A stretch of DNA of 64,000 nt from Streptomyces albireticuli (GTDB lineage Bacteria > Actinomycetota > Actinomycetes > Streptomycetales > Streptomycetaceae), in the NCBI RefSeq assembly GCF_021228125.1, contig NZ_JAJQQS010000007.1, positions 62,001-126,000 on the forward strand. The letters are read 5' to 3'. Positions 24,519-46,139 of the stretch are shown here, one piece after another. The notes below the pieces were generated by a model. That model was not told the origin of the DNA. It ran no database searches and saw only the letters and a program-made list of their open reading frames with translations. The position numbers and the translations under genes were made by a program. The stretch's first letter is position 1, and every line of letters starts with the position of its first letter.

Positions 24519-24839
24519 GTGGTAGGGCCTAAAGTCCTTCCACTCGAACGTTTAGACTGGGTTGCACCCCCTGGAAGTACGGCTGTGACCTAGCCGACAC
24601 CGAGGAATCAAAAAAAACTTTCCAGAAGGGGTTGTATCCGCAGCCGAGGTTTGCGAGTCTCTTCATGGCGATCGGGACGGCCGCCTATCCGGCCCACCGA
24701 CTCAGCCCGAACCCCCTCCCTTTTTCTTGGACCACACCAGTTTTCTGACTGGGCGTCGGCCCTTCCCTTGCGGGGGGATTCGTGAAAGCGTTCACATTCA
24801 CAAGCAACGTAGCCGCAATAACGAGGAGATGGAGCAGCC
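24519..24839 (+). promoter_or_regulatory. long leader/promoter region of the WhiB-like gene
   Basis: A 320-bp gap. It starts with a short inverted repeat GAGTGG ... CCACTC (24517-24545), probably ending the lipid kinase transcript. Further on it has an A8 tract near 24610, very unusual in this GC-rich DNA, and several T runs near 24720. No open frame with a ribosome site was found. A long leader fits the strong and stress-dependent transcription known for wblE-type genes, but no promoter box could be assigned with confidence. Confidence 0.45.
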
Positions 24840-25097
24840 ATGGACTGGCGTCACAACGCCGTTTGCCGCGAGGAAGACCCCGAGCTCTTCTTCCCCATCG
24901 GCAACACCGGTCCTGCGCTGCTGCAGATCGAGGAAGCCAAGGCCGTCTGCCGTCGCTGCCCCGTGATGGAGCAGTGCCTGCAGTGGGCGCTCGAGTCCGG
25001 CCAGGACTCCGGCGTCTGGGGTGGCCTCAGCGAGGACGAGCGCCGCGCCATGAAGCGCCGCGCCGCTCGCAACCGGGCGCGCAACGCCAGCGCCTGA
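24840..25097 (+). CDS. wblE: WhiB-family iron-sulfur transcriptional regulator (WblE)
   Basis: 85 residues. Four Cys at 9, 37, 40 and 46 bind a 4Fe-4S cluster, followed by the family turn GVWGG (58-62) and a basic DNA-contact tail MKRRAARNRARN. WhiB-like proteins work with the principal sigma factor and sense redox or NO. The ATG is preceded by GAGGAG at 24823-24828. Position between the lipid kinase and a PdtaS-like kinase matches wblE of S. coelicolor. Confidence 0.92.
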   Translation: MDWRHNAVCREEDPELFFPIGNTGPALLQIEEAKAVCRRCPVMEQCLQWALESGQDSGVWGGLSEDERRAMKRRAARNRARNASA

Positions 25098-31180: not shown

Positions 31181-32011
31181 TTAGCCCTTCACCGCGCCGG
31201 ACGTGAGACCGCCGACCGCCTTGCGCTGGAGGATGACGAAGAGGATCAGGATGGGCACGGCGAAGAGCGAGGAGGCGGCCATCGTGGCGCCCCAGTCGTC
31301 GCCGAAGGTGGTGCGGAAGCTGGTGAGCCAGAGCGGGAGCGTCTGCGAGGCGGGGTCCTTGTTGAGGATCAGGACCATCGGGAACTCGTTCCAGACGGTG
31401 ATGAAGCCGAAGAGCGAGGTGGCCATCAGGCCGGGCGCCAGCAGCGGGAAGATCACCTTGATGAACGCCTGGGTGCGGGTGCACCCGTCGACCATCGCGG
31501 ACTCCTCCAGTTCCTTCGGCACGGCGGCGACGTAGCCGCGCAGCGTCAGGACGGTGAAGGGCAGCACCATCACGGTGTAGATGGCGATGAGCGGCGGGAG
31601 GCTGTTCAGCATCTCGGCGTCGCGCACGATCATGTAGTACGCGATGACCATGACCTCCCAGGGCGCCATCTGGGCCATCATCATCACGAGGATGAAGCTC
31701 TTGCGGCCCTTGAAGCGCATGCGGGCGACGGCGAACGACGCGAGCAGCGCGATGACGAGCGACAGGGCGACCGCGACCAGGGTGACGGTCAGGGAGTTGC
31801 CCACCAGGGTCCAGAAGCCGTCGGCGTCCACGGCCTTGGAGAAGTGCTCAAGGGTGGGGCTCGTGGGGAACCAGGTGGGGGTGTCGCTGACGATGTCCTT
31901 GTTGGCCTTGAAGGCCGTGGCGAACATCCAGTAGACGGGGAAGGCGAAGACGACGAAGAGAACGACCGCGGCGGCTCCGGGCCAGGCGCGGCCGAGGAAG
32001 GAGCGCTTCAC
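31181..32011 (-). CDS. dasC: ABC transporter permease DasC (chitobiose uptake)
   Basis: 276 residues, six helices, MalG-type inner-membrane permease. The EAA loop, which docks the ATPase, is at VPKELEESAMVDGCTRTQAF. The GTG at 32011 overlaps the dasB stop by four bases and has AGGAGG seven bases upstream. It works with DasB and DasA; the ATPase is supplied from elsewhere (MsiK in S. coelicolor), as no ATPase gene is in the operon. Confidence 0.95.
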   Translation of the reverse strand: MKRSFLGRAWPGAAAVVLFVVFAFPVYWMFATAFKANKDIVSDTPTWFPTSPTLEHFSKAVDADGFWTLVGNSLTVTLVAVALSLVIALLASFAVARMRFKGRKSFILVMMMAQMAPWEVMVIAYYMIVRDAEMLNSLPPLIAIYTVMVLPFTVLTLRGYVAAVPKELEESAMVDGCTRTQAFIKVIFPLLAPGLMATSLFGFITVWNEFPMVLILNKDPASQTLPLWLTSFRTTFGDDWGATMAASSLFAVPILILFVILQRKAVGGLTSGAVKG

Positions 32012-32985
32012 AGCTCGTCCTCCTCTTGCTTGAGGACAAGGCGCAGGTAGTACGCCGTCAGGGCCAGCAGGATGACGATGGTGAGGATGGAGATCGCGGC
32101 GCCCATGCCGAAGTGCTGGTTGCCCATGCCCTCGACGAACGCGTAGACCGGCAGGGTCTCGGTGAGCCGGTCGGGCCCGCCCTCGTTGATCGCGAAGACC
32201 TGGGTGAACGACTTGAAGACCCAGATGACTTCGAGGAACGTCGTGGCGAGGAAGAACGGCTTGAGGAAGGGGAAGGTCACCGAGGTGAACTGCTTCCAGG
32301 GGCCGGCGCCGTCCAGCGAGGCGGCCTCGTAGAGCTCCTTGGGGATCGTGGTCGTGGCCGCGTAGAGGTTGATCGCCACGAAGGGGACCGACTGCCACAC
32401 GATCAGCACGGTGATCACGAAGAAGGTGGAGAACTGCCCGCTGGTCCAGTTGTAGTCGGCCATCGAGTGCCAGCCGAGCGTGTCCAGCAGGTAGTTGACG
32501 ACGCCGAACCGCTGGGCGAAGAGCCACTGGAAGACGGTGGTCGCCGCGACGACGGGCATGGCCCAGGCGAGCACGATGCCCAGCAGGAGCAGCAGCCGCA
32601 TCTTGTTGCCGAGGCGGGCGAGCAGCAGGCCGATCAGACAGCCGACCACCATGATCAGGACGACGTTGGCGGCGGTGAAGACGACCGACCGGCCGGTGAC
32701 GCTCCAGAAGTCGGAACTGCCGAGCGCCTCGGTGTAGTTGTCGACGCCGTTCCACTCGGTGACGTGCTGGATCAGCTGGCGCGGGTTGAGGTTCTGGAAC
32801 GACAGCATGCCGTTCTTCACCAGCGTCCAGCCGAGCAGCAGCACCGTGGCCGCGGCGGCGGGGAGGATCAGGAGGTACGGGACGCCCTGGGAGACCCGCC
32901 CCTTGCCGCCGCGGGGCGGCGGGGCCCCGCCTTTGCCGATCCCGGGGGCGGCGTCCGCCGCCGCCTCTTCGATCTGCGCTGACAT
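32008..32985 (-). CDS. dasB: ABC transporter permease DasB (chitobiose uptake)
   Basis: 325 residues, six main helices, MalF-type permease. The EAA loop is IPKELYEAASLDGAGPWKQF. The N-terminal 35 residues are Ala/Gly/Pro-rich and cytoplasmic. It forms the membrane channel with DasC. The start is about 140 bp downstream of the dasA stop, and dasC overlaps its end by four bases. Confidence 0.95.
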   Translation of the reverse strand: MSAQIEEAAADAAPGIGKGGAPPPRGGKGRVSQGVPYLLILPAAAATVLLLGWTLVKNGMLSFQNLNPRQLIQHVTEWNGVDNYTEALGSSDFWSVTGRSVVFTAANVVLIMVVGCLIGLLLARLGNKMRLLLLLGIVLAWAMPVVAATTVFQWLFAQRFGVVNYLLDTLGWHSMADYNWTSGQFSTFFVITVLIVWQSVPFVAINLYAATTTIPKELYEAASLDGAGPWKQFTSVTFPFLKPFFLATTFLEVIWVFKSFTQVFAINEGGPDRLTETLPVYAFVEGMGNQHFGMGAAISILTIVILLALTAYYLRLVLKQEEDEL

Positions 32986-33124: not shown

Positions 33125-34396
33125 TCACTGCTTCTGGCTGAGGCGCTTGTTCATGTCGCCCTCGACCTGCTTGGCGGCTTCCTCCGGGGACTTCCCGTTG
33201 AGGACGGCCGTCATGTACGCCTTGATCGGGTTCGGCGCGTTCTCGACCGGGGCCCACTCGGGGATCAGCGGCGTGGTGCCGCCGCCCTTGGCGGCCGGGG
33301 CCGCGGCCTCGGCGGCCGGGTTGCCCTTGACGCTGCCCAGCAGGGAGTCCTTGTTGGGCAGCGAGCCGACCTCCTTGGCCAGCGCGCTCTCGTTCTTGTC
33401 GGACAGCGCGATCTTCAGGAACTCCTTGGCGAGTTCCTGCTTCTTGCTGCCCGTCGCGACGGCGAGGTTGGAGCCGCCGAGGAAGACGCCCTCGGGCTTG
33501 TCGGCGGTCTCACCGGGGATGGTGAAGTAGCCGATCTCCTTCTCGATGGCCGGGTTGGCCTTGATCGCGGTGGCGGCTTCCCAGCCCATGCCGATGAAGG
33601 CGCCGGTCTTGCCCTTGGCGAAGACGTCGGCCTGCTGCGGGGTGGCCTCGTCCTTGTCCTTGGGCGCCTTGCTGAACGCCTGGTACTGCTTGTAGATGTC
33701 CATCGCCTTGGCGACCTTGGGGTCGGCGAGGTTGGAGACGTACTTCTTGCCGTCCTTCTTCACCAGGTCGGCGCCGGTGCCGATGGTGAGGCCGTCGAAG
33801 AAGTACCAGTTCTGGCCGGGCAGGTAGAGCGGCTCGGCTTCGCCCTTCTTCTGAATGGCCTCAAGGGCCTTGAAGAATTCGGCGCGGGTCTTGGGCGTCT
33901 CCTTGACGCCCGCGTCCGCCCAGACCTTCTTGTTGTAGATGACGACGCGGCTGGCGGCGTACCAGGGTGCGGCGTACTGCTTGCCCTCGAAGACGGCCGG
34001 CTTGTTGAGGGATTCGGTCCAGTCCCCGCCGATCTCCTTCTTCAGGTCGCCGAGGTCGGCGAGGCCACCGGTCTGGGCGTACGAGGGGGTCTGGGTGTTG
34101 CCGACCTCGACGACGTCGGGCGGGCTGGACTCGGAAAGCGCGGTGGTGAGCTTCTGCTGAATTCCGTCCCATTTCTGGACCTGGATATTCAGCTTCGCGC
34201 CGGTCTTCTGTTCGAACTCGGCCTGGACCGATTTCGTCCAGCCGGCGGGGTTCGAGCCGTCCATGAACCAGACGGTGAGGCTCTTGGCCTTGTCGCCGGA
34301 GTCGCCCGATCCCTTGTCACCGTCGCTGGACCCACAGGCAGCAACACTCACCAACATGGCCGCGACACCAGTCGCCGCTATGAGCCCTCGCTTCAC
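33125..34396 (-). CDS. dasA: sugar-binding lipoprotein DasA
   Basis: 423 residues. A lipoprotein signal ends with the lipobox SVAAC, placing the protein on the outer face of the membrane. The mature part is a family 1 extracellular solute-binding protein, with LTVWFMDGSNPAGWTKSVQ near its start and GAFIGMGWEAATAIK in the second lobe. DasA binds chitobiose and hands it to DasB/DasC. Two dre-like sites lie 33-72 bp upstream, so DasR represses it. Confidence 0.95.
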   Translation of the reverse strand: MKRGLIAATGVAAMLVSVAACGSSDGDKGSGDSGDKAKSLTVWFMDGSNPAGWTKSVQAEFEQKTGAKLNIQVQKWDGIQQKLTTALSESSPPDVVEVGNTQTPSYAQTGGLADLGDLKKEIGGDWTESLNKPAVFEGKQYAAPWYAASRVVIYNKKVWADAGVKETPKTRAEFFKALEAIQKKGEAEPLYLPGQNWYFFDGLTIGTGADLVKKDGKKYVSNLADPKVAKAMDIYKQYQAFSKAPKDKDEATPQQADVFAKGKTGAFIGMGWEAATAIKANPAIEKEIGYFTIPGETADKPEGVFLGGSNLAVATGSKKQELAKEFLKIALSDKNESALAKEVGSLPNKDSLLGSVKGNPAAEAAAPAAKGGGTTPLIPEWAPVENAPNPIKAYMTAVLNGKSPEEAAKQVEGDMNKRLSQKQ

Positions 34397-34428
34397 AGCA
34401 CTCTCCTCAAGGACCGAATGTGGTCTTT

Positions 34429-34444
34429 AATGGTTTAGACCAGT
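34429..34444. promoter_or_regulatory. dre site 1 upstream of dasA
   Basis: AATGGTTTAGACCAGT resembles the DasR consensus ACTGGTCTAGACCACT. It is 33 bp upstream of dasA and in the divergent dasA-dasR gap. Confidence 0.8.
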
Positions 34445-34452
34445 GCCCGCAG

Positions 34453-34468
34453 CTTGGCCTAGACCTTT
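34453..34468. promoter_or_regulatory. dre site 2 in the dasA-dasR gap
   Basis: CTTGGCCTAGACCTTT is a second, weaker match to the DasR site, eight bases beyond the first. Two neighbouring sites may allow cooperative repression and autoregulation. Confidence 0.65.
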
Positions 34469-34580
34469 TGGGGTGTCAAGGGTGTATAAGAGTCGCTGTC
34501 GGCTCCGTTACCGGACCGACACCTCAAGCTCGACCTGGGCATCTCCGGGCCCCTCGGGCTCTGCCCGTGCCACCATGTGA

Positions 34581-35405
<825 letters not shown>

Positions 35406-35507
35406 CGCCGGCGGGCGGCGGCCGAGCGCGGCGGGAAGCGCCGGTCCGGGCGGACGCGGGGCGCGGCCGGTCGCCCCTGACCTCGAAGGGCGTGCTTCCA
35501 TCCTCGG

Positions 35508-36083
35508 GTGACCGATGAGAGTGCCGGTGCCCGGGCCGAAGAGAACGCCCGCGTCCTGACCGATGAGAACGCCCGCGTGCGTATCCGCCCCCGCGGCGCC
35601 TCCGATCTCGGCGGCTGCGTGGACGCGCTCGCCCGGGTCCACGCGCGGGACGCCTACCCCCTGGACTGGCCGGCCGACCCGGCCGCCTGGCTGTCCCCTC
35701 CGTCGCTGCTCGCGGCCTGGGTGGCGGAGCTGGACGGGCGGGTCGCCGGGCACATCGGCCTGTGCCGCGCCGGGGCCGGGGACACCGCCGCCGCGGTGTG
35801 GAGCGCGCGCCGGGGCGTGGGCCTCGGCGCGACGGCGGTCGTCGGCCGCCTGTTCGTGGCCCCGGCGGCCCGGGGCCACGGCGCGGGCGCCCTCCTCCTG
35901 GCCGCGGCCACGGCGGAGGCCCGGCGGCGGGTCCTGCACCCGGTCCTCGACGTCGTCGCGTCCGACACGGCGGCGACGGCGCTGTACGAACGCGAGGGCT
36001 GGACCCGTCTCACCACTGCCGAGCAGCGCTGGAGCCCGGACCGGACGGTGACGGTCCACTGCTACGCGGCGGGGGCGGCGTGA
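35508..36083 (+). CDS. GNAT-family N-acetyltransferase
   Basis: 191 residues. The acetyl-CoA-binding loop is VAPAARGHGAGALLL and motif B is VLDVVASDTAATALYEREGW. An Arg-rich first strand RIRPRGASDL starts the fold at about residue 25, after an acidic N-terminal extension in which DENARV and ENARV are repeated. The substrate is unknown. GTG at 35508 is used; no strong ribosome site is seen. Confidence 0.82.
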   Translation: MTDESAGARAEENARVLTDENARVRIRPRGASDLGGCVDALARVHARDAYPLDWPADPAAWLSPPSLLAAWVAELDGRVAGHIGLCRAGAGDTAAAVWSARRGVGLGATAVVGRLFVAPAARGHGAGALLLAAATAEARRRVLHPVLDVVASDTAATALYEREGWTRLTTAEQRWSPDRTVTVHCYAAGAA

Positions 36084-36102
36084 CGCGGGCCGGTCACCGG
36101 GC

Positions 36103-36543
36103 TCACTGGACGACGACGGTCACCTTCCAGGGAATGATGACGGCGGGGCAGAACCAGTCCGGTGCCGGGTAGCACTCCTGGGTGGAGTTGATCTCGGCGG
36201 TCCCCCTGTCCTGGGCACGGAAGGTGCCCGAGGCGTTGCCGTTCCCGTCCATGCCGCGGCCGATGTGTCTGAGGACCTGGAAGTCGGAGGACGTCGGGTA
36301 GTCCCACGCCCAGACGCCCCCGGCCGACCGGGAACCCTTCAGCTCGACCTGGATCACGTCCCCGCTCCGCACGACGACCGTGCGGTTCTTGTCCTCGTTA
36401 CCCAGTACGACCTCGGCGGCGACGGCGCTCCGCTGGTGCGTACGGGGTGCGCCGGCCGCCGAGGCGGGGGCGACGGCGGCGGCCGTCAGCGCCAGTCCGG
36501 CGGCGAGGGGGACGACGAGCGATGCCGTGGTCTTCATCTTCAC
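36103..36543 (-). CDS. small secreted protein, possibly chagasin-like (inhibitor family I42)
   Basis: 146 residues. The signal peptide ends near APASAAGA. The mature part has the pattern VVRSGDVIQVELKG ... GGVWAWDYP ... GTFRAQDRGTAEI, which resembles the beta-sandwich of chagasin-type cysteine-protease inhibitors (loops GD, SAGGVW and the later RAQDRG turn). The match is by eye and weak. Two Cys (in TQECYPAPDWFCP) may form a disulfide. It converges on the GNAT gene. Confidence 0.55.
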   Translation of the reverse strand: MKMKTTASLVVPLAAGLALTAAAVAPASAAGAPRTHQRSAVAAEVVLGNEDKNRTVVVRSGDVIQVELKGSRSAGGVWAWDYPTSSDFQVLRHIGRGMDGNGNASGTFRAQDRGTAEINSTQECYPAPDWFCPAVIIPWKVTVVVQ

Positions 36544-36674
36544 CTCGGTACGGGTGGAATGGATGCGTCGGGCTTCCGTCTACACCCGCGCGCACCGCCG
36601 CGTCCCCCTCGATTCACGCCACGTGGTGTGTGGTGAGGACCGGACCGAGCGCCGGGTCACCCCGGCGGAACCGC

Positions 36675-37826
36675 CTAGCGGCCCTCGCACAGGGCCGTCG
36701 TCACGACCTTGTCCATCTGCGCGAGGGGGACGTTGGTCGTCAGATGGGCGTTGGTCACCACGGACACGTGGCGGCCGTCCGCGGTGACCATCGTCTGGGT
36801 GTAGTAGCCGGGCACCATGCCGTTGTGGCCCCAGGCCGAGCCGCCGCAGGGCAGGTCGCGCCTGATCAGCCCGAGCCCGTAGCCACCTTCCTCGAAGTCG
36901 GCACCCGTGGCGTTCTGCATCTCGGCCAGGGCGGCCTGAGAGACGACCTTGCCACCGATCAGCGCCTGATAGAACTTCGTGAGGTCCTGTTCCGTCGAGA
37001 TCAACGCTCCGGCGCTGCTGAAGGCGGACGGGTCGTAGTCGAGGACCGGCGTCCAGAAGTAGAGCCCGGCGAACCGCGCGCCGTGGTACCCGCGCACGGC
37101 CGGCGTGGGCAGCGAGTGGTCGCCGGGGGCCGGGAAGACGGTCCGGGACAGGCCGAGCGGCGTGATGATCCGGTTTGTGACGGCCTGGTGCACCGGCATC
37201 CCGGTGGTCTTCTCCACCAGCATGCCGAGGATCATGTAGTTGGTGTTGGAGTAGAGGTAGGCGGTGCCGGGCGCGGAGGCCGGGGCGCGCTTCAGCCCTT
37301 CCCGGACCAGCGCGTCGAGGGAGTACGAACCGTCCGGGTTGGCGGCGGGCCGCGAGAGGAGCGGCTCGTAGGCCGCGACGCCGCTGGTGTGGTGGAGCAG
37401 TTGCCGCACCGTGACGGCGTTGCCGTCGTAGCCGTTGCCCTTGACGACGCCGGGCAGGTACTTCTCGATCGGGGTGTCCAGCGAGACCTTGCCCTCGTCG
37501 ACGAGCTGCATGACCGTGGCCGCGGTGAAGGTCTTGGTCTGGCTGCCGGCCCGGAAGTGCTCGTCCGGCTGGATCGGGGCGTTGGTGTTGATGGTGCCGG
37601 TACCGGCGGAGAGGCTCCAGGAGTTCGCCGCGTCACCCGCGTGGACACCGGCGCCCGGGCCCGCGGCCGACTGGAACGCCTTCAAGGCGGCCAGCGTGCC
37701 GGCGTGAGGGTCGGCGGCCGCGGGCGCGGCCTGCGCCGCCGAAGGGAGCACGGCCAGTGCCGCGCACGCCGCGCCGAGTGCGGCCACCAGTCTTACCCGG
37801 CCTATCCGGCCGAACTTCCGTGCCAT
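36675..37826 (-). CDS. secreted serine hydrolase, class C beta-lactamase/D-Ala-D-Ala carboxypeptidase fold
   Basis: 383 residues with a signal peptide ending near SAAQAAP. Catalytic motifs are SQTK (95-98), YSNTNY and GHNG, the SxxK, YxN and HxG set of penicillin-recognising enzymes of the R61 DD-peptidase/esterase group. Likely work is trimming peptidoglycan peptides or hydrolysing esters outside the cell. It has a three-unit direct repeat about 90 bp upstream. Confidence 0.9.
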   Translation of the reverse strand: MARKFGRIGRVRLVAALGAACAALAVLPSAAQAAPAAADPHAGTLAALKAFQSAAGPGAGVHAGDAANSWSLSAGTGTINTNAPIQPDEHFRAGSQTKTFTAATVMQLVDEGKVSLDTPIEKYLPGVVKGNGYDGNAVTVRQLLHHTSGVAAYEPLLSRPAANPDGSYSLDALVREGLKRAPASAPGTAYLYSNTNYMILGMLVEKTTGMPVHQAVTNRIITPLGLSRTVFPAPGDHSLPTPAVRGYHGARFAGLYFWTPVLDYDPSAFSSAGALISTEQDLTKFYQALIGGKVVSQAALAEMQNATGADFEEGGYGLGLIRRDLPCGGSAWGHNGMVPGYYTQTMVTADGRHVSVVTNAHLTTNVPLAQMDKVVTTALCEGR

Positions 37827-37911
37827 GACTACCCCCAAGACGATCAAGCAAGTCAAATGACCCGCATGGTAGGCATGGGGACGCGGACCCAGGTACCCCG
37901 AACGCCAGGGA

Positions 37912-37944
37912 TTGACGTGGAGTTGACGTCGAGTTGACGGCGGA
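37912..37944. repeat. three tandem 11-bp direct repeats, candidate operator
   Basis: TTGACGTGGAG, TTGACGTCGAG and TTGACGGCGGA follow one another with an 11-bp period in the 241-bp gap between the serine hydrolase and the next divergent gene. One-turn spacing is typical of OmpR/PhoP-type response regulator sites. Confidence 0.6.
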
Positions 37945-38067
37945 CCGATCCCGACGGCGCGGGGGCGCGGTCGCGCGGTCACCCGGGGGGGCCGCTTCAC
38001 CGCGGCCGCCCCGGGTGACATCCCACGAGTCCCGGCGCACTGCCGCAAAGCGACCGAAACGTAGGAT

Positions 38068-38589
38068 ATGTACGTGCAAATGATCGAATTCCGTGCAGCG
38101 CCCCGTTGGTGGCAGTGGTCGGCCGTCGCCGTGTTTCTCCTCACCGGCGTGCTCTTCCCGTGCGTCATCACCTTCGGCATGGGCTGGGACGAGTTCGGCC
38201 GCCGCTACCAGGAATCACCGCGCGGCAGGGGAATGGGCTTCTGGGCCACCGGCGACTTCGTGATCGCGGCCCTCTCCCTCGCCGGGTGCCACCACTTCTC
38301 CGGGCGTACGTTCGTCGGGGCCGACGGCATACGCACCAGGACCCCGCTGAGGCGGCGGTTCATCCCCTGGGGCGACGTCAAGTACGTCGACATGGACAGG
38401 GGGATCGACGAGTTCCTCGGCCGCAAGACGGGCCCCATGTACCGGATCCGGCTGGACCTGGTGAACGGCAAGAGCCTCTGCCTGCCCGCGCCGATGGCCC
38501 AGGAGTTCGACTCCGCCATGGAGGCGGCCAAGTCCGCGATCATGCGCCGCCGGAAGGCCTGGGCCGATCGGTCCGAGTCCGCGAGCTGA
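38068..38589 (+). CDS. membrane protein with PH-like domain, function unknown
   Basis: 173 residues. Two hydrophobic segments at about 17-40 and 63-77 are followed by a cytoplasmic region (about 80-155) with a strand pattern like bacterial PH domains: [21 protein letters not shown] and YRIRLDLVNGKSLCLP. No enzymatic motif. ATG at 38068 or 38080 could be the start. Confidence 0.65.
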   Translation: MYVQMIEFRAAPRWWQWSAVAVFLLTGVLFPCVITFGMGWDEFGRRYQESPRGRGMGFWATGDFVIAALSLAGCHHFSGRTFVGADGIRTRTPLRRRFIPWGDVKYVDMDRGIDEFLGRKTGPMYRIRLDLVNGKSLCLPAPMAQEFDSAMEAAKSAIMRRRKAWADRSESAS

Positions 38590-38699
38590 CGCGACGGAGC
38601 GGGGCGGCCGCCCGGCCAAGGGTGTGCGCGGCCGACGGCGCCGGGCCGAGGGCGACCCCCAAGGCCCCCCGGCCCGACGTCACGGGAAGTGCACTGCTC

Positions 38700-38774
38700 T
38701 CAGAGCAGGCGGGCCACCTGGTTGAGCACGGCCAGGGTCCAGCCCAGGGCCGGAGTGATCATGGGCAAGAGCAT
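38700..38774 (-). CDS. candidate 24-residue hydrophobic small protein
   Basis: An ATG at 38774 preceded by AGGAG at ten bases opens a frame of 24 codons beginning MLLPMITPALGWTLAVLNQV, ending in TGA. It is one short membrane-like helix. No homologue is known to me. The gap between flanking genes is 269 bp and nothing else is seen there. Support is the ribosome site and hydrophobic character only. Confidence 0.35.
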   Translation of the reverse strand: MLLPMITPALGWTLAVLNQVARLL

Positions 38775-38858
38775 CGCGGCTGCACTCCTGTCATATGGGC
38801 CGCTCATCATTGCGGCCTGGTGACCGGATCAACGACGCCCCGTCCGGCCGGAAACGCC

Positions 38859-39455
38859 TTAGGCGTCCAGGGGGTTGGCGGCGACGCGCGCGGCGATCCC
38901 GTTCCGCACGGCGGCCGCGGCGGAGCTGTCCGGCTTCCGCTCGGCCTGGCTCTCGAAGCACGCGACGAACTCGTCCTTGAGGCCGAGGCGCGGATAGCGG
39001 TCGAGCACCTCGGCCCGGAGGCCGGCGGGGAAGGCGTCGACGCCCCGCCCGGAGATGTCCACCGACGTGGCGAACTCCAGCAGGTGCCCCTCCGGGTCCT
39101 CCTCGACGTCCACCCGGCTCCACATGTGCCGGACGATCACCTCGCCCACCCGCACCCGCCGCGCAACCGGCCACCCGGCCCCCGCCGCGAACACCCAGGC
39201 CACATGCCCGCCCGCCTCGTCGAACGACACGGTGTGGCTGTCGAACTCCTTCGTCAGACCTATGTCGTGCAACAGGGCGGCGACGTAGAGGAGTTCCGCG
39301 TCGAAGGCGATGCCGGCCTCTTTCGCGTGCGCGGCGGCCCACAGGTAGGACCGGACCGAATGGTTCAGCAGCGCGGGCGAGCAGTAGGCGGTGGCCACTT
39401 CGCGCGCGGCGACGCAGGCGGCGGTCTCGGGGATCACAAGGTCGTCGATCTTCAT
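38859..39455 (-). CDS. HD-domain phosphohydrolase-like protein
   Basis: 198 residues. The HD motif is LLHDIGL with further His residues in NHSVRSYLWAA and VIVRHMWS, the layout of cyanamide hydratase-like HD proteins. Metal-dependent hydrolysis is expected; the substrate is unknown. Start taken at ATG 39455 (MKIDDLVIP); GTG 39470 is an alternative. Confidence 0.82.
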   Translation of the reverse strand: MKIDDLVIPETAACVAAREVATAYCSPALLNHSVRSYLWAAAHAKEAGIAFDAELLYVAALLHDIGLTKEFDSHTVSFDEAGGHVAWVFAAGAGWPVARRVRVGEVIVRHMWSRVDVEEDPEGHLLEFATSVDISGRGVDAFPAGLRAEVLDRYPRLGLKDEFVACFESQAERKPDSSAAAAVRNGIAARVAANPLDA

Positions 39456-39581
39456 GCGGGTGATTCTCACCCACGCCCCCAGAAGCTCCGGAGCGGGGCC
39501 CGGTGGACGGAACCCCGGTTTCGTCAGGTGCCCCTGCCCCGGCGGGGAGAAGTCCCGCCGCGGAAGACCAGCGGCCTCGAT

Positions 39582-40937
39582 TCACGCCTTGAGCATGGCG
39601 ATTTTGGTAATGCGTGTAGACATTCCTCGTACAGCCTGGGAATTCCTGAATGGCTTCAGGCGGAGCCGCATCACGTCAAAGTGCTCGTCTCCCCTGGCAG
39701 AAGAAACGTGTTCATAGTCCTCCAGGAAGCGCGTCCACGATTCGCAGGCTGCTTCGAGGTGACCGTACTCGAGCTGGCGTTGCGCGAGCACGCCGTAGAA
39801 GTGAACCCGCCCTTGCCGCTCGTTTGGGGGCTGTACCTTCAGAGCCTGTTGCAGCGCTTTGATCGAGCCGGGCAGGTCCCTGCTCTCGTATAGCACATGG
39901 GAGACGTGAAAGGCATAAGAGGACTGGTCGTAGCCGCCGATTGACTCGCGCCGATTGTCGGCCTTCATCAGGGCGGCTTCTGTGGCAGCCAGCAGGCGTC
40001 GCGCGCGGCGATGGTCGCCTACCATCGCAGTGGCATGCGCCTGCTGCCCTGTGAGGAACGCCTGAAGCCGCGGGCCGGTTTTCGGGGCGGCTTCAGCTGC
40101 TGAATCAGCAAACTTTAGGGCCAGAGACCCGTAACCAAGGTTGGATGCCTGAAGGCTCATACCACGTAGGGTGCGGCAATACGTCACGTGATCCTCTGCC
40201 CTGCTGGCCAGCTTCAGTGCCTTGACGTAGTAGCTCTGAGCAGTGCCGTGATCCCGCTCGTACATGGCCATCCAGCCAGTCAGATAGACCAGGTCCGAGG
40301 CTGCTGCCCAGATATCCTTCCGCACTGCATCGGTGGCGTCCGCTCGAAGCCAAGGAACCACCGTGTTGACGAGGAACGCCGCCGCCATTGGCCTTGCGTG
40401 CGCCCCACCGAGCTCATCCAAAATATCCGCGATCTTGTCAGTCATCTTCCGAACAGCCGCGACCTGCCCAGCGCCAATCCTCACAGTCCGTTTCCCAGGG
40501 GTCACAGGGTGGGCATCCGCAGCACGTGCAGGATCCGCGAACGAAGGCACCGCTAAAGTCGCGGAGAACAAGCCGGCTGCAACGACGAGGCCCCGGCGGG
40601 ATGGATCCATGTCGGCCCTCCCGAGGTCAACGATTTCTTCCACAGTGCCAAGATCCGCCGGGATATTGTCCTCAGCGGCGCGCGGTAGCCCAGCCTCCGC
40701 GTGAGTCACAGTACGACGCAGCTTGCGGGAGAGCGCTTCAACGATCAGGCGCCTGACCGAGGGCTTGGGGACAGTTCCTCCAACCCAGTGCGAAACGGCC
40801 GATTGATCGTAGTGCAGCGTCAACCCCACCTCAGTGCCCATGCGGTTGATGACGAGTGCGAACTGCGAGCGGGACCATTCAGCCTGCGCCAGCAGCCGCT
40901 CCAGCCCCTCATTGGGGGTACGCGCGTGGTTCGCCAT
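39582..40937 (-). CDS. XRE-type regulator with TPR-like C-terminus
   Basis: 451 residues. The helix-turn-helix covers about 12-85, with recognition segment LHYDQSAVSHWVGG and RRLIVEALSRKL. Residues 114-139 (SRRGLVVAAGLFSATLAVPS) form an RR-headed hydrophobic stretch that looks like a signal sequence placed inside the protein. From 150 on, helical pairs such as GTAQSYYVKALKLASRAED suggest tetratricopeptide repeats. Proteins of this design are common Streptomyces regulators of unknown ligand. Base composition is clearly lower in GC (about 57-63 % in sampled lines) than the neighbours, suggesting acquisition. It is divergent from a set of small ORFs. Confidence 0.85.
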   Translation of the reverse strand: MANHARTPNEGLERLLAQAEWSRSQFALVINRMGTEVGLTLHYDQSAVSHWVGGTVPKPSVRRLIVEALSRKLRRTVTHAEAGLPRAAEDNIPADLGTVEEIVDLGRADMDPSRRGLVVAAGLFSATLAVPSFADPARAADAHPVTPGKRTVRIGAGQVAAVRKMTDKIADILDELGGAHARPMAAAFLVNTVVPWLRADATDAVRKDIWAAASDLVYLTGWMAMYERDHGTAQSYYVKALKLASRAEDHVTYCRTLRGMSLQASNLGYGSLALKFADSAAEAAPKTGPRLQAFLTGQQAHATAMVGDHRRARRLLAATEAALMKADNRRESIGGYDQSSYAFHVSHVLYESRDLPGSIKALQQALKVQPPNERQGRVHFYGVLAQRQLEYGHLEAACESWTRFLEDYEHVSSARGDEHFDVMRLRLKPFRNSQAVRGMSTRITKIAMLKA

Positions 40938-41025
40938 GCCTCCAACTCCCCGCAGAGTGCCTTGCGTTCATGGCTTTCATGCTCTGACCTCCTCCTCACA
41001 GTACCGCCGTACGTAGCTGTGCGGT

Positions 41026-41038
41026 TGCGTAGTACGCA
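41026..41038. promoter_or_regulatory. candidate operator between XRE regulator and small ORFs
   Basis: TGCGTA-G-TACGCA is a 13-bp palindrome with six-base arms, in the 214-bp divergent gap. A second short dyad, GTAC-CGCC-GTAC, lies at 41001-41012. Either could bind the XRE regulator. Confidence 0.45.
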
Positions 41039-41151
41039 GGTCAAACACCCCACGGAAGCAGCCCGCCGGGAACGGTGCGGATGGCTGACGCACCGGGACG
41101 GGTGAGGCGGTACGCGACCGTCCGGCGCGGGATACACGGAGGCTCGAACAG

Positions 41152-41466
41152 ATGACGAACGCAGCACAGGAACCCCCCATGCGGGTGGTGGACACCCGTG
41201 ACGGCGGCATGGGGCGGCGCACGAACAAGGTGGGCGCGACGGGGCACCCGACGCACGGGGCTGGAACGGGATATCGCTCCGGCGTGCTGGTGGTGGAACG
41301 AGCCACCGGCCTCATGGGCGTCACCCAGCCCAGGACGACGGACGGCATCCGCGTCATGCCGCTGGACGGCGGGGAGCCCTGGACGGTCCAGGGAACAGCC
41401 GGCCTGCGGCTCGCCACCGAGCAGGAACGCGCGAAGCTCGGCCTGGGCCCCAGGAGGGTGGACTGA
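41152..41466 (+). CDS. hypothetical protein, first of a chain of small ORFs
   Basis: 104 residues, no family recognised. Charged and Gly-rich, with GTGYRSGVLVVERATGLMGV as the most structured-looking part; no Cys, no membrane helix. GGAGG nine bases before the ATG is a strong ribosome site. Divergent from the XRE regulator and head of four small co-directional ORFs, so probably under its control. Confidence 0.7.
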   Translation: MTNAAQEPPMRVVDTRDGGMGRRTNKVGATGHPTHGAGTGYRSGVLVVERATGLMGVTQPRTTDGIRVMPLDGGEPWTVQGTAGLRLATEQERAKLGLGPRRVD

Positions 41467-41474
41467 TACCGGGC

Positions 41475-41669
41475 GTGATCTCGCTGCCCCACTCGTCCCG
41501 GCCCGGCGCCGCCATGGTCGGCAAGGTCGTAAGCAAGTGTGAGGGCTGCCAGTACTGGACGGCTGTGCGCTACGCGGCGTACCCGACGGAGTCGCAGGAC
41601 GCCCCTCTTGGCCCAACACGAGAGGGAGGCGCATCCCGATGGGTGAGAAGCGCCCCGCCGATCGGGTGA
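41475..41669 (+). CDS. possible small Cys-containing protein
   Basis: 64 residues from a GTG eight bases after the previous stop. KCEGCQYW holds a CxxC pair that could bind metal. No good ribosome site; reading would depend on coupling, or on an internal ATG at 41514. It overlaps the next small ORF by 31 bases in another frame. Confidence 0.4.
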   Translation: MISLPHSSRPGAAMVGKVVSKCEGCQYWTAVRYAAYPTESQDAPLGPTREGGASRWVRSAPPIG

Positions 41670-41734
41670 TCAAATCCCGGAGCCGCGCGGTCGACGAGGA
41701 GTCGGTTGAGCCGCCCGTTCGGGCCTGCGGCTAG
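41639..41734 (+). CDS. possible 31-residue peptide
   Basis: Opens MGEKRPADRVIKSRSRA and ends in VRACG. GGGAGG nine bases before the ATG supports translation. Highly charged, a single Cys next to the C-terminus. Function unknown. Confidence 0.4.
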   Translation: MGEKRPADRVIKSRSRAVDEESVEPPVRACG

Positions 41735-41848
41735 CCCCCAGACCCCGCCCGATCGCCTGCACGACGGTCGGCGGCCGGGTGGGTCAGCAAGTGCACGACG
41801 GCGCGGGGACGGCCCCCGTGTCGGCACGGCTCACGAAGGGATCAGGCA

Positions 41849-41983
41849 ATGGACCCGGAAAAGCTGGCACTGACGGCGTTCGCCGACGGTAACGAGGAGA
41901 ACAGCCAGGGCGAGACCGGCGACGGCTCGGACGGCGCGGAAGGCAACGACTCGCAGGGCTGCGGCGACAACAGCCAGGGCTAA
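41849..41983 (+). CDS. 44-residue Gly/Asp/Ser/Gln-rich peptide, precursor-like
   Basis: The N-terminal part MDPEKLALTAFADGNEE looks like a leader. The rest is built from Gly, Asp, Asn, Ser, Glu and Gln, with NSQG at 18-21, DSQGCG at 34-39 and a terminal DNSQG, and one Cys. Acidic, no hydrophobic segment. AAGGGA upstream fits a ribosome site. A perfect 14-bp hairpin follows 30 bp after the stop and another gene starts 20 bp after that, an order often seen when a peptide gene must be expressed more than its downstream genes. No modification enzyme is recognisable nearby. Confidence 0.55.
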   Translation: MDPEKLALTAFADGNEENSQGETGDGSDGAEGNDSQGCGDNSQG

Positions 41984-42012
41984 CCGCCGCCGGCTGAGCA
42001 CAATGAGCAACC

Positions 42013-42050
42013 GAACGGCCCCGCTCTGCCAGACTGGAGCGGGGCCGTTC
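42013..42050 (+). terminator. hairpin between peptide gene and next ORF
   Basis: A perfect 14-bp stem GAACGGCCCCGCTC / GAGCGGGGCCGTTC with a ten-base loop. The next start codon is only 20 bp away, so it could act as a partial terminator or stabilise the upstream mRNA. Confidence 0.8.
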
Positions 42051-42070
42051 TGCGTAATGAGGGAGAAGCA

Positions 42071-42523
42071 ATGGCCAAAGCCATGACCGGAGTTGGGCGC
42101 GTCACCGTGTTCCCCCTGCTGCACCTGTGGCCCGACACGTACGGAGTAGTGGCATACGCGACAACAGGAAACTTCGGCGACACAGCTATCGTCGGATACA
42201 TCCCCATTCCCGAAGTTCCGGACGTTTACCTTATGGATGCTGCGGCTAGGCATGCCGTAGGAAGCTCGGCCACCGCAAGCGTCGATTGGGTCCTGTGCAC
42301 GGGGTGGAGTGCCCGCTCCGTACCAAAACCGGGGACGCTTGACCTGCCCGAGGCGGCATGGGCACTGGAAGTCGACGGGCGAGGGGCCCCCAAAGACACC
42401 TTGTACGGCCACAACCAGCTCTTTACGGGTCGTTTCTCGCTGGATTCCCCGGACCTCATGGACCAAGCCCGAAAAGTCCTGGACAGTCGGATGCCGACTC
42501 TTCAGACGGTCCCGGTGGGGTAG
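42071..42523 (+). CDS. hypothetical 150-residue protein
   Basis: No family recognised. Strand-rich pattern (VTVFPLLHLWPDTYGVVAYA, TAIVGYIPIPEVPDVYLMDA) with many aromatic residues and one Cys; no signal or membrane helix. GAGGGAG precedes the ATG. It lies just after the hairpin behind the 44-residue peptide gene, so a role with that peptide is conceivable but unproven. Lower GC than the core genome. Confidence 0.6.
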   Translation: MAKAMTGVGRVTVFPLLHLWPDTYGVVAYATTGNFGDTAIVGYIPIPEVPDVYLMDAAARHAVGSSATASVDWVLCTGWSARSVPKPGTLDLPEAAWALEVDGRGAPKDTLYGHNQLFTGRFSLDSPDLMDQARKVLDSRMPTLQTVPVG

Positions 42524-42862
42524 TCGGCCACGGGCCGCTCAAGGCAGGAGCACAACGATGCGGCGACCTGGAGCGGCACCGGAACGCGGCCCTTCTTACG
42601 GTCGAGGAGGGCCGCGAGTACCCGGGGGGCGCGGTTCCTCGCGGAGTGTCTCGACCGGTAGGTGATGAGGGAGGCTTCAACTCCGCTGATTCGAGGCGCG
42701 ATTCGCCCATGAGGGTGACAGCTCGTACGGGCGGTTCGCGGTACCGTGGCCGGGATTCCGCTGCTTCGGCACGCCTCGCGCGCCCCAACGCGGCGACCCC
42801 CCACGCCGGACGGCAACCGGCGAAGGGGGTCTACACCCACCAGGAGAAGAGACCTCCCTAGG
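42524..42862. other. 339-bp intergenic region
   Basis: No convincing gene. It contains a hairpin with stem CGCGGCCCT / AGGGCCGCG (42585-42593 with 42608-42616), perhaps a terminator for the small-ORF group. The rest probably includes the promoter of the next gene. Confidence 0.5.
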
Positions 42863-43849
42863 ATGCTCCGGCATGTTATCGCTCCTGCGCGCTTCTTCTC
42901 GCAGGTTCCCAACGACCTCGTCCGCCACCCCCGGTTGTCCGCCAACGCCGTCCGGCTCCTCATCTGGCAGCTCTCGCTGCCCGACGGCGCGGCCTCGCAG
43001 CCGCTCTCCGTCACCGGCGAACGGGCCGGTATCAGGAACGCCGCCTTCACCCGCGCCAAGCGGGAGCTCGCCGCCGAGGGTTATCTGCACAAGTGGCGGT
43101 CGCAGGGCGAGGGCGGCCGCTGGGCCACCCGGCAGCTCGTCTCGAACGTGCCGCTGACCGCCGAGGACGCGTTACGCGTGCGGGACGGCGGACAGCCGGT
43201 GGACCCGGCCCCCGAGCGCCCGGGCCCACGCCCCGGCCCCGCCCGCCCCTCACCGACTCCCCGGAAACCGGCCGCCGGTGAGCCGGCCCCCCGGCCCGTC
43301 GGTCGTCCCCATAAGAAGACGGAGGAGAACACCTCCCACCCTCCCCACCCGCTCGCCGAGCGCGGTGCCCGAGCCCTCGCCGCCGTGTCGCACGCCGAGC
43401 GGCGGCTGCGGCTCTCCGGGCGGGACGTCGCGCGGCTCGCGCCGCTGGCGGCGGAGTGGTTGCTGCGCGGCGCCACGTCGGCCGATCTCCGGGAGGCGCT
43501 CACCCATGGGCTGCCCGAGCGGGTCCACTCCCCCGCCGGGATCACCCGCGACCGGCTGCTGCGGAAGATGCCCGACCCCGTGCCCACCGCCGTACCCGCG
43601 CCCAGGCCCCAGCCCCTGCGGCTCTGCACCGGCGGGTGCGGCCGGATGATGCGGCCCGTCTCCGACGAGACCCGCTGCCGGGACTGCCGCCTGAACGCGG
43701 CCGGCGCGTCCGACGCGGGCCACGCCACGACCGACGGCGCCGTCGCCGCCACCCTGCGCGGCGTCGCGGCCGTACGGGAATCCTTGCGGGGCGGCCGCCA
43801 CCCCCTCCCGTCCCGGCCACCATCCGGAACGGTAACCGCCGGTTACTGA
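42863..43849 (+). CDS. winged-helix DNA-binding-type protein (replication-initiator-like N-terminus)
   Basis: 328 residues. The N-terminal 100 residues (RFFSQVPNDLVRHPRLSANA, TGERAGIRNAAFTRAKREL, EGYLHKWR) have the look of a winged helix as in plasmid or phage replication/partition proteins. A Pro-rich linker follows (about 112-160). The C-terminus holds a Cys cluster CTGGCGRMM ... CRDCRL that may bind zinc. Many streptomycetes carry several such genes of unknown function. ATG 42863 with AGGAGAAGAG upstream is used. Confidence 0.65.
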   Translation: MLRHVIAPARFFSQVPNDLVRHPRLSANAVRLLIWQLSLPDGAASQPLSVTGERAGIRNAAFTRAKRELAAEGYLHKWRSQGEGGRWATRQLVSNVPLTAEDALRVRDGGQPVDPAPERPGPRPGPARPSPTPRKPAAGEPAPRPVGRPHKKTEENTSHPPHPLAERGARALAAVSHAERRLRLSGRDVARLAPLAAEWLLRGATSADLREALTHGLPERVHSPAGITRDRLLRKMPDPVPTAVPAPRPQPLRLCTGGCGRMMRPVSDETRCRDCRLNAAGASDAGHATTDGAVAATLRGVAAVRESLRGGRHPLPSRPPSGTVTAGY

Positions 43850-44002
43850 AAACCCCCACCCTCGAACTCACCGTCCGTACACGGCACTTCCCGGCCGGAT
43901 GACATTGCCATACCGATATACGGACAGGGGGTGACTCCCACCGGGACGTCGCCTAGATTTCCTGCGCATCACGCAGTGATCACAAAGGGGGGAGTCACCA
44001 GC

Positions 44003-44320
44003 ATGACGGAACCACCGACAGGGACACCGGAGGACGCCGGCCGGACGGCCACGAAGGCCACCGGCACCGGCACCGGCACCGTGACCGTCCCGATGATCGT
44101 GGCGGGCATATGCCTGGCCATACCCTTCGTCGCGATGCTGTGGGTCGACTCCTACTCCCGGCTCACGCCCGCCTTCATCGGCATCCCGTTCTTCTACTGG
44201 TACCAGATGCTGTGGGTGCTGATCTCCACCCTGCTCACGGTCGTCGCGTACACGATCGTCCGGCGCCACGAGCGCCTCCAGCGGTCGGCGCGGGCGCGCG
44301 AGGCGGGTGAGCGGGCATGA
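44003..44320 (+). CDS. DUF3311-type small membrane protein
   Basis: 105 residues with two hydrophobic helices (VPMIVAGICLAIPFVAML and MLWVLISTLLTVVAYTIV). Its stop overlaps the start of the sodium:solute symporter gene by four bases; this pairing of a DUF3311 protein with an SSS symporter is recurrent and suggests a helper subunit. GGGGGGAG lies upstream of the ATG. Confidence 0.82.
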   Translation: MTEPPTGTPEDAGRTATKATGTGTGTVTVPMIVAGICLAIPFVAMLWVDSYSRLTPAFIGIPFFYWYQMLWVLISTLLTVVAYTIVRRHERLQRSARAREAGERA

Positions 44321-45942
44321 AGGACGGCGTGAACGGCGTGGCACTCGCCGTCTTCATCTTCTTCTTCCTCGTCGTCACCGTCATGGGCTTCGTCGCCTCG
44401 AAGTGGCGGCGCGCCGAGAACGCGGACAGCCTCGACGAGTGGGGCCTCGGCGGCCGGTCCTTCGGGACGTGGGTGACGTGGTTCCTGCTGGGCGGGGACC
44501 TCTACACCGCGTATACGTTCGTGGCCGTCCCGGCGGCCATCTACGCGGGCGGCGCCGCCGGCTTCTTCGCGGTGCCGTACACGATCCTCTGTTACCCGCT
44601 CGTCTTCACCTTCCTGCCCCGGCTCTGGTCGGTCTCGCACAAGCACGGCTACGTGACCTCCTCGGACTTCGTCCGCGGCCGGTTCGGGTCCAAGGGCCTG
44701 TCGCTGGCGCTCGCGCTCACCGGCATCCTCGCGACGATGCCCTACATAGCCCTCCAGCTCGTCGGCATCCAGGCGGTGCTGGACGTCCTCGGCGTGGGCG
44801 GCGGCTCGAACTGGTTTATGAAGGACCTGCCGCTGCTGATCGCGTTCGGTGTGCTCGCGGCGTACACCTACTCCTCCGGGCTGCGGGCCCCGGCGCTGAT
44901 CGCGTTCGTCAAGGACGCCCTGATCTACATCGTGATCATCGTCGCGATCATCTACATCCCGATCCGGCTGGGCGGCTTCGACCACATCTTCAGCGCGGCG
45001 GGCGACGCCTTCGCCGTGCAGAACCCGGAGACGGGCAAGCCGCGCGGCTCCCTGGTGAGCGGACCGGACGCGCAGTGGGCGTACGCGACGCTCGCGCTGG
45101 GTTCCGCGATGGCGCTCTTCCTCTACCCCCACTCGGTGACGGCGGTTCTCTCCAGCAAAGGCCGCAACGTCATCCGCCGGAACACCACCATCCTGCCGCT
45201 GTACTCGCTGATGCTCGGGCTGCTGGCGATGCTCGGCTTCATGGCGATCGCCGCCGGGATCAAGGTCAGGAACGGGCAGCTCGCCATCCCTCAGCTGTTC
45301 GAGAACATGTTCCCGGACTGGTTCACGGGCGTGGCCTTCGCCGCCATCGGCATCGGCGCCCTGGTGCCGGCCGCGATCATGTCCATCGCCGCCGCGAACC
45401 TTTTCACCCGCAACATCTACAAGGACTTCATCAAGCCGGACGCCTCGCCCGAGCACGAGGCGAAGGTCTCCAAGCTCGCCTCGCTCCTGGTGAAGGTCGG
45501 CGCGCTGGTGTTCGTCCTGACCATGGACAAGACGGTCGCGATCAATTTCCAGCTGCTGGGTGGCATCTGGATCCTCCAGACCGTGCCCGCCCTCGTGGGC
45601 GGCCTCTTCACCCGCTGGTTCCACCGCTGGGCACTGCTCGGCGGCTGGGTGGCCGGCATGGCGTACGGCACCTGGCGGGCGTACGACACGCCGAGCGCCA
45701 CCCAGGATCATTTCGGGAATACCAATCTGATCCCCCTTATCGGCGAAAAGGGCTATATCGGGCTGACCGCCTTCGCGCTCAATGTGATCGTGGTCATCGT
45801 CCTGACCTTCGCCCTCAAGGCCCTCCGCGCCCCCGACGGCGTGGACGAGACCAGCGCCGCGGACTACACCGCGGACGCCGGCGACCCGGGGGTCCGGCAG
45901 GAGCTCCCGCCGGCCACCGCAGGCGCCCCGGGCGGCCACTAG
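44317..45942 (+). CDS. sodium:solute symporter family transporter
   Basis: 541 residues with about thirteen helices of the SSS family. Helix 1 is preceded by a short outside N-terminus, and GLGGRSFGTWVTWFLLGGDLY is the conserved segment of monocarboxylate-type members such as MctC. The substrate may be a short organic acid; not provable here. Translationally coupled to the small upstream membrane protein. Confidence 0.9.
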   Translation: MKDGVNGVALAVFIFFFLVVTVMGFVASKWRRAENADSLDEWGLGGRSFGTWVTWFLLGGDLYTAYTFVAVPAAIYAGGAAGFFAVPYTILCYPLVFTFLPRLWSVSHKHGYVTSSDFVRGRFGSKGLSLALALTGILATMPYIALQLVGIQAVLDVLGVGGGSNWFMKDLPLLIAFGVLAAYTYSSGLRAPALIAFVKDALIYIVIIVAIIYIPIRLGGFDHIFSAAGDAFAVQNPETGKPRGSLVSGPDAQWAYATLALGSAMALFLYPHSVTAVLSSKGRNVIRRNTTILPLYSLMLGLLAMLGFMAIAAGIKVRNGQLAIPQLFENMFPDWFTGVAFAAIGIGALVPAAIMSIAAANLFTRNIYKDFIKPDASPEHEAKVSKLASLLVKVGALVFVLTMDKTVAINFQLLGGIWILQTVPALVGGLFTRWFHRWALLGGWVAGMAYGTWRAYDTPSATQDHFGNTNLIPLIGEKGYIGLTAFALNVIVVIVLTFALKALRAPDGVDETSAADYTADAGDPGVRQELPPATAGAPGGH

Positions 45943-45957
45943 GAGCCCCCGGAGGAC

Positions 45958-45984
45958 CCCGCCGGACCCGGCCGGTCCGGCGGG
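45958..45984 (+). terminator. hairpin terminator after the symporter
   Basis: Stem CCCGCCGGAC / GTCCGGCGGG of ten pairs with a seven-base loop, 15 bp after the stop codon. Confidence 0.75.
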
Positions 45985-46139
45985 CCCCGACAGGGCCCCA
46001 CAGGGCCGTCGCACCCCCTCGCAGGGGCGCGGCGGCCCTCTCTCGCGCCCGGCGCCAAGGCCCGGAATCCCGGGCCCTGTTAGCACATTCCGACCCGCGC
46101 GATTACCGCGTGACACAACATGTGGTGGTGCGTGCGGGA

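Follow-up and report, generated by a model that had tools for sequence, protein, structure and literature searches.

The described systems closest to the locus analyzed here are the actinobacterial graspetide clusters (TIGR04186/TIGR04187/TIGR04188) and the WhiJ/BldB/AbaA and iosA loci. The available part of one graspetide study reports that groups 11 and 13 have DUF397/DUF5753 genes next to them and proposes that mining DUF397/DUF5753 pairs may lead to new biosynthetic enzymes (PMC13097080), and an excerpt of another lists histidine-kinase-like ATPases, DUF5753 regulators, and TPR proteins as neighbors of ATP-grasp loci, each at a frequency of 0.02 to 0.03 (PMC8939145). XRE-DUF397 pairs, earlier proposed to be toxin-antitoxin systems, are described as regulators after a study of fourteen, according to the portion of that work available to us (PMC10364602). 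In Streptomyces venezuelae, WhiJ9 activates the neighboring gene iosA; the message is leaderless, and its product is a 15-kDa sporulation inhibitor with an isoelectric point (pI) of 10.3 whose model matched no solved structure, as reported in the sections available of PMC10294661. Here, we describe a cassette within a 64,000-nucleotide stretch ("the window") of the 8.56-Mb genome of Streptomyces albireticuli, consisting of a gene for a 44-residue acidic peptide, a GC-rich hairpin, and a gene for a 150-residue protein, p150, next to a divergent regulator gene.

Like the graspetide clusters, near which DUF5753 regulators are reported, the cassette pairs a short precursor-like peptide that ends in an acidic tail with a partner gene downstream, and one such cluster occupies the equivalent site in Streptomyces eurocidicus. 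Unlike in those clusters, no ATP-grasp ligase or TIGR04188-type methyltransferase was recognized when the cassette genes and two flanking genes were scanned. The WhiJ/BldB/AbaA and iosA loci likewise place an XRE regulator beside small proteins without known function, and related cassettes often lie by XRE-DUF5753-type genes; however, no DUF397 gene was recognized in the window island, and the available sections of the iosA account mention no peptide, hairpin, or p150 (PMC10294661). Identity of p150 with IosA was judged unlikely on pI alone (10.3 versus 5.2 for the window p150; a remote p150 relative, L071, has 10.5).

That the peptide, hairpin, and p150 form one selected and conserved cassette is well supported. 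Reading upstream of 44 p150 genes and in 16 named loci revealed short acidic peptides at the same place in many loci. For a mechanical test, we counted open reading frames (ORFs) that are not basic, that have a tail rich in Gly, Asp, Asn, Pro, Ser, Thr, Cys, and Glu, and whose stop codon lies 25 to 130 nucleotides upstream of the gene in question. Such an ORF precedes 35 of 52 p150 genes, a set that includes close paralogues (e.g., three in one genome), versus 8 of 461 other genes in these loci that served as controls; one of the 35, in the S. eurocidicus locus L042, has just the 3' half of the peptide. The peptide core NTDIEDGDG shows synonymous codon changes among 15 distinct copies. Since these copies were chosen by a pattern that fixes most residues, the variation supports coding and gives no amino acid change rate. 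The locus presents a precursor-like peptide with a conserved core beside partner genes, which is one feature expected of a ribosomally synthesized and posttranslationally modified peptide (RiPP) in general.

Used alone as a query, the 44-residue peptide finds matches in 2 of 246 genomes, itself included. It carries no secretion signal or signal-like hydrophobic segment as judged by reading rather than by a predictor, in agreement with an initial annotation of the window, which had also described the small ORFs as lacking any known family. Scans of Pfam and NCBIfam uphold that description for the 44-residue peptide (which matches neither TIGR04186 nor PF14408), for p150, and for a 31-residue ORF upstream. 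A literature search found no paper with either of two peptide core strings.

The gap between peptide and p150 in the window folds at -39.3 kcal/mol (z = -2.8), with 15 pairs, bearing out the hairpin of the initial annotation. The feature recurs: across 34 of 35 such gaps (one containing N was excluded), the mean z is -2.9 against dinucleotide shuffles, with 27 of the 34 below -1.5. The stems vary in sequence between loci and are located shortly before p150. Because no U-tract follows the window hairpin, partial termination or 3'-end protection is a role that we infer for it.

Relatives of p150 at E ≤ 0.001 occur in 45 of 392 Streptomyces genomes, its own counted. In a class-wide sample, p150 is present in 7 of 345 genomes, all in the genus of the window (1 of 126 genera); the relatives with names are all Streptomyces (16 of 16 loci), and p150 is absent from plasmid and phage collections at the limits used. 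The ratio of nonsynonymous to synonymous substitution rates (dN/dS) between the window p150 and two S. eurocidicus copies is 0.09 to 0.18, indicating selection on the protein. An AlphaFold2 model built with 17 sequences (mean predicted local distance difference test score [pLDDT], 85; predicted template modeling score [pTM], 0.82) contains five strands along with two helices in the middle and further helices at the C terminus. A PDB sequence search with the p150 profile returned no match, and Foldseek with the model returned nothing at E ≤ 0.001 (best E, 0.057). Structure comparison (VIA) gave weak OB-like and superantigen-like rows with Z at most 5.5, the best match to OB domains being a weak one (Z, 5.5; root mean square deviation, 2.2; 66 residues aligned). 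Among 17 closer p150 rows, 25 columns are invariant.

In a tree of 52 p150 rows, five peptide labels of our own assignment require 16 changes versus a mean of 28.9 when shuffled, indicating that a given peptide type and its p150 mostly descend together, with some switching. Six rows that fail the mechanical test (L041, L061, L071, L075, L079, and L081) are labeled by eye as having a peptide or a long tail. Several remote p150 relatives (L059 to L064, L066, L070 to L073, L075 to L077, and L079 to L081) follow longer, VDPGWHxFxLHT-like proteins of ~100 to 120 residues with tails such as CNPPACCGDGGGC. Three examples of these proteins were scanned, with no meaningful Pfam or NCBIfam match; the kinship of those with CNPPACCGDG tails to the short peptides is drawn from position and tail only.

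The partner downstream of the peptide is not always p150. Searching 392 genomes with a profile of 16 peptides gave 27 places in 22 of them: 17 lie before p150 by coordinates, and by reading, 6 lie before another partner, 1 has no partner, and 3 are judged to be chance matches. The three dropped matches (genomes G167, G231, and G346; E, 0.002 to 0.007) have no precursor-like context; two in G008 and one in G090 were retained for context despite E values of 0.004. The alternative partners are a protein with VDWD and DAHHDCGY motifs (L153, L154, and L155), a kinase-like protein (L156), and a 135-residue protein (L158 and L159). The kinase-like protein, scanned as the first 260 of its 280 residues, has as its best NCBIfam match the class IV lanthionine synthetase LanL (46.9 bits; cutoff, 650) and matches Pfam Pkinase at 25.1 bits (cutoff, 31.7). 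It thus resembles the kinase region of LanL far under the cutoff, and the window partner is p150, not a kinase. Neither the DAHHDCGY protein nor the 135-residue protein has a Pfam or NCBIfam match. The idea that the DAHHDCGY protein is a UPF0489-type peptide arginase gained no support from a Pfam scan and a PDB sequence search, and we leave the protein unnamed. Hairpins are found in all seven non-p150 peptide loci, with z from -1.3 to -3.6 (for L157, an arbitrary 87 nucleotides were folded). The peptide and hairpin without a partner (L157:7113-7223) are in genome G354, whose p150 (L048) has no intact peptide; these two may act in trans as a pair.

The regulator fits the NsdA family model over residues 10 to 440. 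In Pfam, TPR_2 falls below its cutoff, and no HTH model is among the matches. The protein is a clear member of the NsdA family that falls short of NsdA and NsdB proper (71.4 and 65.9 bits; cutoffs, 830 and 700). Matches at E ≤ 1e-60 are found in 77 of 224 Streptomyces genomes, its own counted. In L155, an NsdA-family regulator 59% identical to that of the window (the same place as L184) faces a peptide that precedes the DAHHDCGY protein; the window layout therefore recurs once with a different partner. The remaining close relatives of the regulator face assorted other genes by reading. Among these, L174 faces an FxLD-system methyltransferase (a fragment at the locus end; 176.8 bits; cutoff, 320), and L164 faces the start of a possible radical-SAM protein, a weak assignment.

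The most common neighbors of p150 are of other kinds. As raw counts, an XRE-DUF5753-type cluster lies near 25 of 42 p150 loci and a DUF6879-type cluster near 16 of 42; within 3.5 kb of p150, the corresponding numbers are 24 and 15 loci. The cluster names rest on one member of each identified by Pfam, as HTH_31-DUF5753 and as DUF6879 (L057). A looser cluster joins the TPR regulators of L042, L050, and L061 to that of the window; with the window regulator as query, none was found at 1e-6, and only that of L042 is confirmed as NsdA family. A literature search found no paper joining DUF6879 and Streptomyces.

The cassette lies at a site that is variable between relatives (S. eurocidicus L042 and loci L199 and L200). 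The left flank of L042 matches the window in two pieces (37539-37943 at 79% and 38860-39620 at 91%) and its right flank matches 41914-45998 at 92%, with the right junction inside the peptide core. Between the matching flanks, 2.3 kb of the window corresponds to 6.6 kb in L042, which holds a different NsdA-family regulator along with an acetyltransferase-like protein and a graspetide cluster (TIGR04186 precursor, TIGR04187 ATP-grasp, and TIGR04188 methyltransferase). The p150 adjoining that cluster is 93% identical to the window p150. L042:2973-7752 is thus the slot equivalent to window positions 39620-41914, with the graspetide cluster and NsdA-family regulator in place of the window regulator and peptide. 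In L199, which is more distantly related, the window pieces 34565-35413 and 44123-45923 have their matches ~205 bp apart; therefore, the block from 35.4 to 44.1 kb (35414-44122) is missing there. The same two pieces lie ~2.7 kb apart in L200, and L198 and L201 match the right piece only.

The best explanation of these observations, and one that we believe about as much as we doubt, is that the cassette encodes a RiPP-precursor-like peptide with a swappable binding or modifying partner. We prefer it because no other reading ties together as well the presence of a kinase-like protein among the partners, the division of the peptide into leader and core, the hairpin, and a regulatory setting like that of graspetides. 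What follows from it for modification, attenuation, regulation, and any biological activity is what we infer. The peptide would be a ribosomally made precursor, with a short leader for recognition and an acidic Gly/Asp/Asn-rich tail as the part acted on. The protein in the partner slot, be it p150, the LanL-like kinase, the DAHHDCGY protein, or the 135-residue protein, would bind or modify it. The hairpin may partly terminate or stabilize the transcript, so that the peptide is made in large amounts and the partner in small ones. In this strain, control of the cassette probably lies with the divergent NsdA-family regulator, and elsewhere probably with XRE-DUF5753 regulators. A more specific form, in which the cassette represents a new RiPP class in Streptomyces with an Asp/Gly/Asn-rich precursor, an interchangeable single partner, and p150 as a novel protein that tailors or binds the precursor and whose fold has no clear known counterpart, we put forward only tentatively.

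Several results weigh against a precursor and its partner. Across 43 diverse p150 rows, only M1, W97, and G120 are invariant, with R10, A28, Y29, G36, A39, L54, A58, and W73 nearly so. With so few invariant residues, no catalytic set is visible, and this pattern is an argument against a single catalytic site conserved throughout the wide family. Among the cassette genes, Pfam and NCBIfam revealed no known RiPP tailoring enzyme; neither the peptide nor p150 has a match there, nor do two of the three alternative partners. The peptides before the 135-residue protein, at E ~0.004, are as weak as the matches dropped and were kept for their hairpin and context. Only 1 of 29 close relatives of the regulator (58 to 71% identity) faces the peptide within the ~1.5 kb examined. 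Further, p150 stands without a recognized peptide in 11 of 52 rows, according to labels set by eye on the upstream sequences listed. On the tree, they occur in scattered positions, the 11 rows requiring 8 changes. That p150 persists without the peptide is hard to reconcile with a tailoring enzyme, except one acting in trans; it is the main evidence against a precursor and partner and favors an antidote role.

Such a role would make the cassette an effector-immunity or toxin-antidote pair, in which p150 would bind the peptide and give protection against the harm that the peptide, with or without modification, does to cells or competitors. Besides the 11 peptide-less rows, the S. eurocidicus copies L042, with a truncated peptide, and L043, with none, point this way: dN/dS between them is 0.088, although part of the divergence may predate the loss. 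The peptide core end and p150 also stay together where the upstream sequence has been exchanged, the match of the window to L042 starting inside the core and running to the right and that to L078 reaching no farther than the leader. However, the slot is also filled by the kinase-like protein and two other unrelated proteins, which would be odd for immunity, and the peptide is acidic and, by reading, without a hydrophobic segment. The description of XRE-DUF397 pairs as regulators rather than toxin-antitoxin systems, in the part of PMC10364602 available, bears on the regulators and not on the peptide. Taken as a whole, we consider an antidote role unlikely.

Equally unlikely, in our estimation, is a regulatory module that yields no modified product, in which WhiJ/NsdA-type regulators act above the peptide and p150, both being small proteins of development or antibiotic control comparable to AbaA or IosA. 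It would account for the XRE cluster near 25 of 42 p150 loci, a raw count, and the WhiJ9-activated IosA resembles p150, which has no strong structural match, in that the available sections of its account report no solved-structure match (PMC10294661). Yet IosA and the window p150 differ in pI (10.3 versus 5.2), even though the remote relative L071 is as basic (10.5), and the iosA message is leaderless according to the same sections, so that no peptide is read ahead of iosA. The kinase-like alternative partner and the conserved peptide core would also be left unexplained. RRNPP-like quorum sensing, raised in the initial annotation and prompted by a TPR-like regulator with a peptide gene nearby, would have the XRE-TPR protein sense the exported 44-residue peptide and is very improbable, since the peptide has no signal sequence by reading and is divergent to the regulator, the peptide is faced by 1 of 29 closest regulator relatives within ~1.5 kb (a more distant peptide would be missed), DUF5753-type regulators are the most common in p150 loci, and the regulator itself fits the NsdA family model.

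Features of the island and their supporting evidence
Feature	Coordinates	Strand	Evidence
44-residue acidic peptide, precursor-like: short leader, Gly/Asp/Asn/Ser-rich tail	41849..41983	+	pI 4.05; recurrence upstream of p150
15-bp GC-rich hairpin between peptide and p150, no U-tract seen	42013..42050	+	z -2.8
p150, partner protein without known family, predicted compact beta-rich fold	42071..42523	+	Relatives, selection, model
NsdA-family XRE/TPR-like regulator, 451 residues	39582..40937	-	NF053720 NsdA_fam_reg, 397.2 bits (cutoff, 75)
Candidate operator/promoter region: TTCATGGC/TTCATGCT-type direct repeat, then AGTACCGCCG...GCGGTTGCGTAG	40967..41032	.	Motifs common to up to 21 of 30 regulator upstream regions
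104-residue ORF, weakly conserved accessory protein	41152..41466	+	16 of 392 genomes at E ≤ 0.001, one strong match outside source
64-residue ORF, unsupported, contains one CxxC	41475..41669	+	No match in p150 or regulator loci

The region from 39582 to 42523 has a GC content of 64.9% versus 72.3% window-wide, the lowest among same-size stretches sampled every 100 bp, so the low-GC island first seen by eye is real. The dip is uneven and due to the regulator (61.9%) and p150 (62.0%), the 104-residue ORF being at 72.1%; third-position GC is 0.69 and 0.70 in the regulator and p150 versus 0.90 to 0.96 in three flanking genes. Rfam gave no match in the 39- to 43-kb region at gathering scores. Elsewhere in the window are further low-GC dips (24251-25000, 32001-32500, and 34001-34750) and one odd tRNA-like gene with a four-base anticodon according to ARAGORN (14588-14684).

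The palindromic operator proposed for the regulator intergenic region was not recovered: no compact palindrome was found, the listed inverted repeats having arms 97 to 102 nucleotides apart. There is instead a short shared motif, ACGGTAC, found on either strand in 21 of 30 upstream regions of related regulators (maximum of 10 in 30 shuffles), of which the window variant is AGTACCG at 41000-41006. Common descent alone may account for part of this sharing, as the upstream regions come from related regulators.

The ORFs of 104, 64, 31, 44, and 150 residues in the initial annotation are all present at their positions, with conservation beyond chance for the 44- and 150-residue products. Support for the 104-residue ORF is thin: among its matches outside its own genome (which is counted in the total in the table), one is strong (70% identity; E, 7e-26), one has an E of 2e-10, and the others range from 9e-7 to 1e-3. 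The locus of the strong match also carries the peptide and a p150 relative. The 64-residue ORF has no match at 1e-3 in 41 p150 loci or at 0.01 in 29 regulator loci. The 31-residue ORF, which shares part of its sequence in a different frame and was compared with Pfam and NCBIfam only, is without support. A compact peptide-based system therefore stands as far as the peptide, hairpin, and p150 recur together; the link to the regulator is weaker, clusters of XRE-DUF5753-type and DUF6879-type genes being the most common neighbors in p150 loci. Co-occurrence of the peptide with the regulator gene did not hold within ~1.5 kb, and a regulator that is the constant partner of the peptide is rejected as a rule.

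Genes for such short peptides are easily omitted from annotation, and since no family in Pfam or NCBIfam covers the peptide or p150, mining that relies on families would miss the cassette. The cassette offers a testable handle on the targets of WhiJ- and NsdA-type regulators in Streptomyces and a small system that pairs one precursor family with several unrelated partner proteins.

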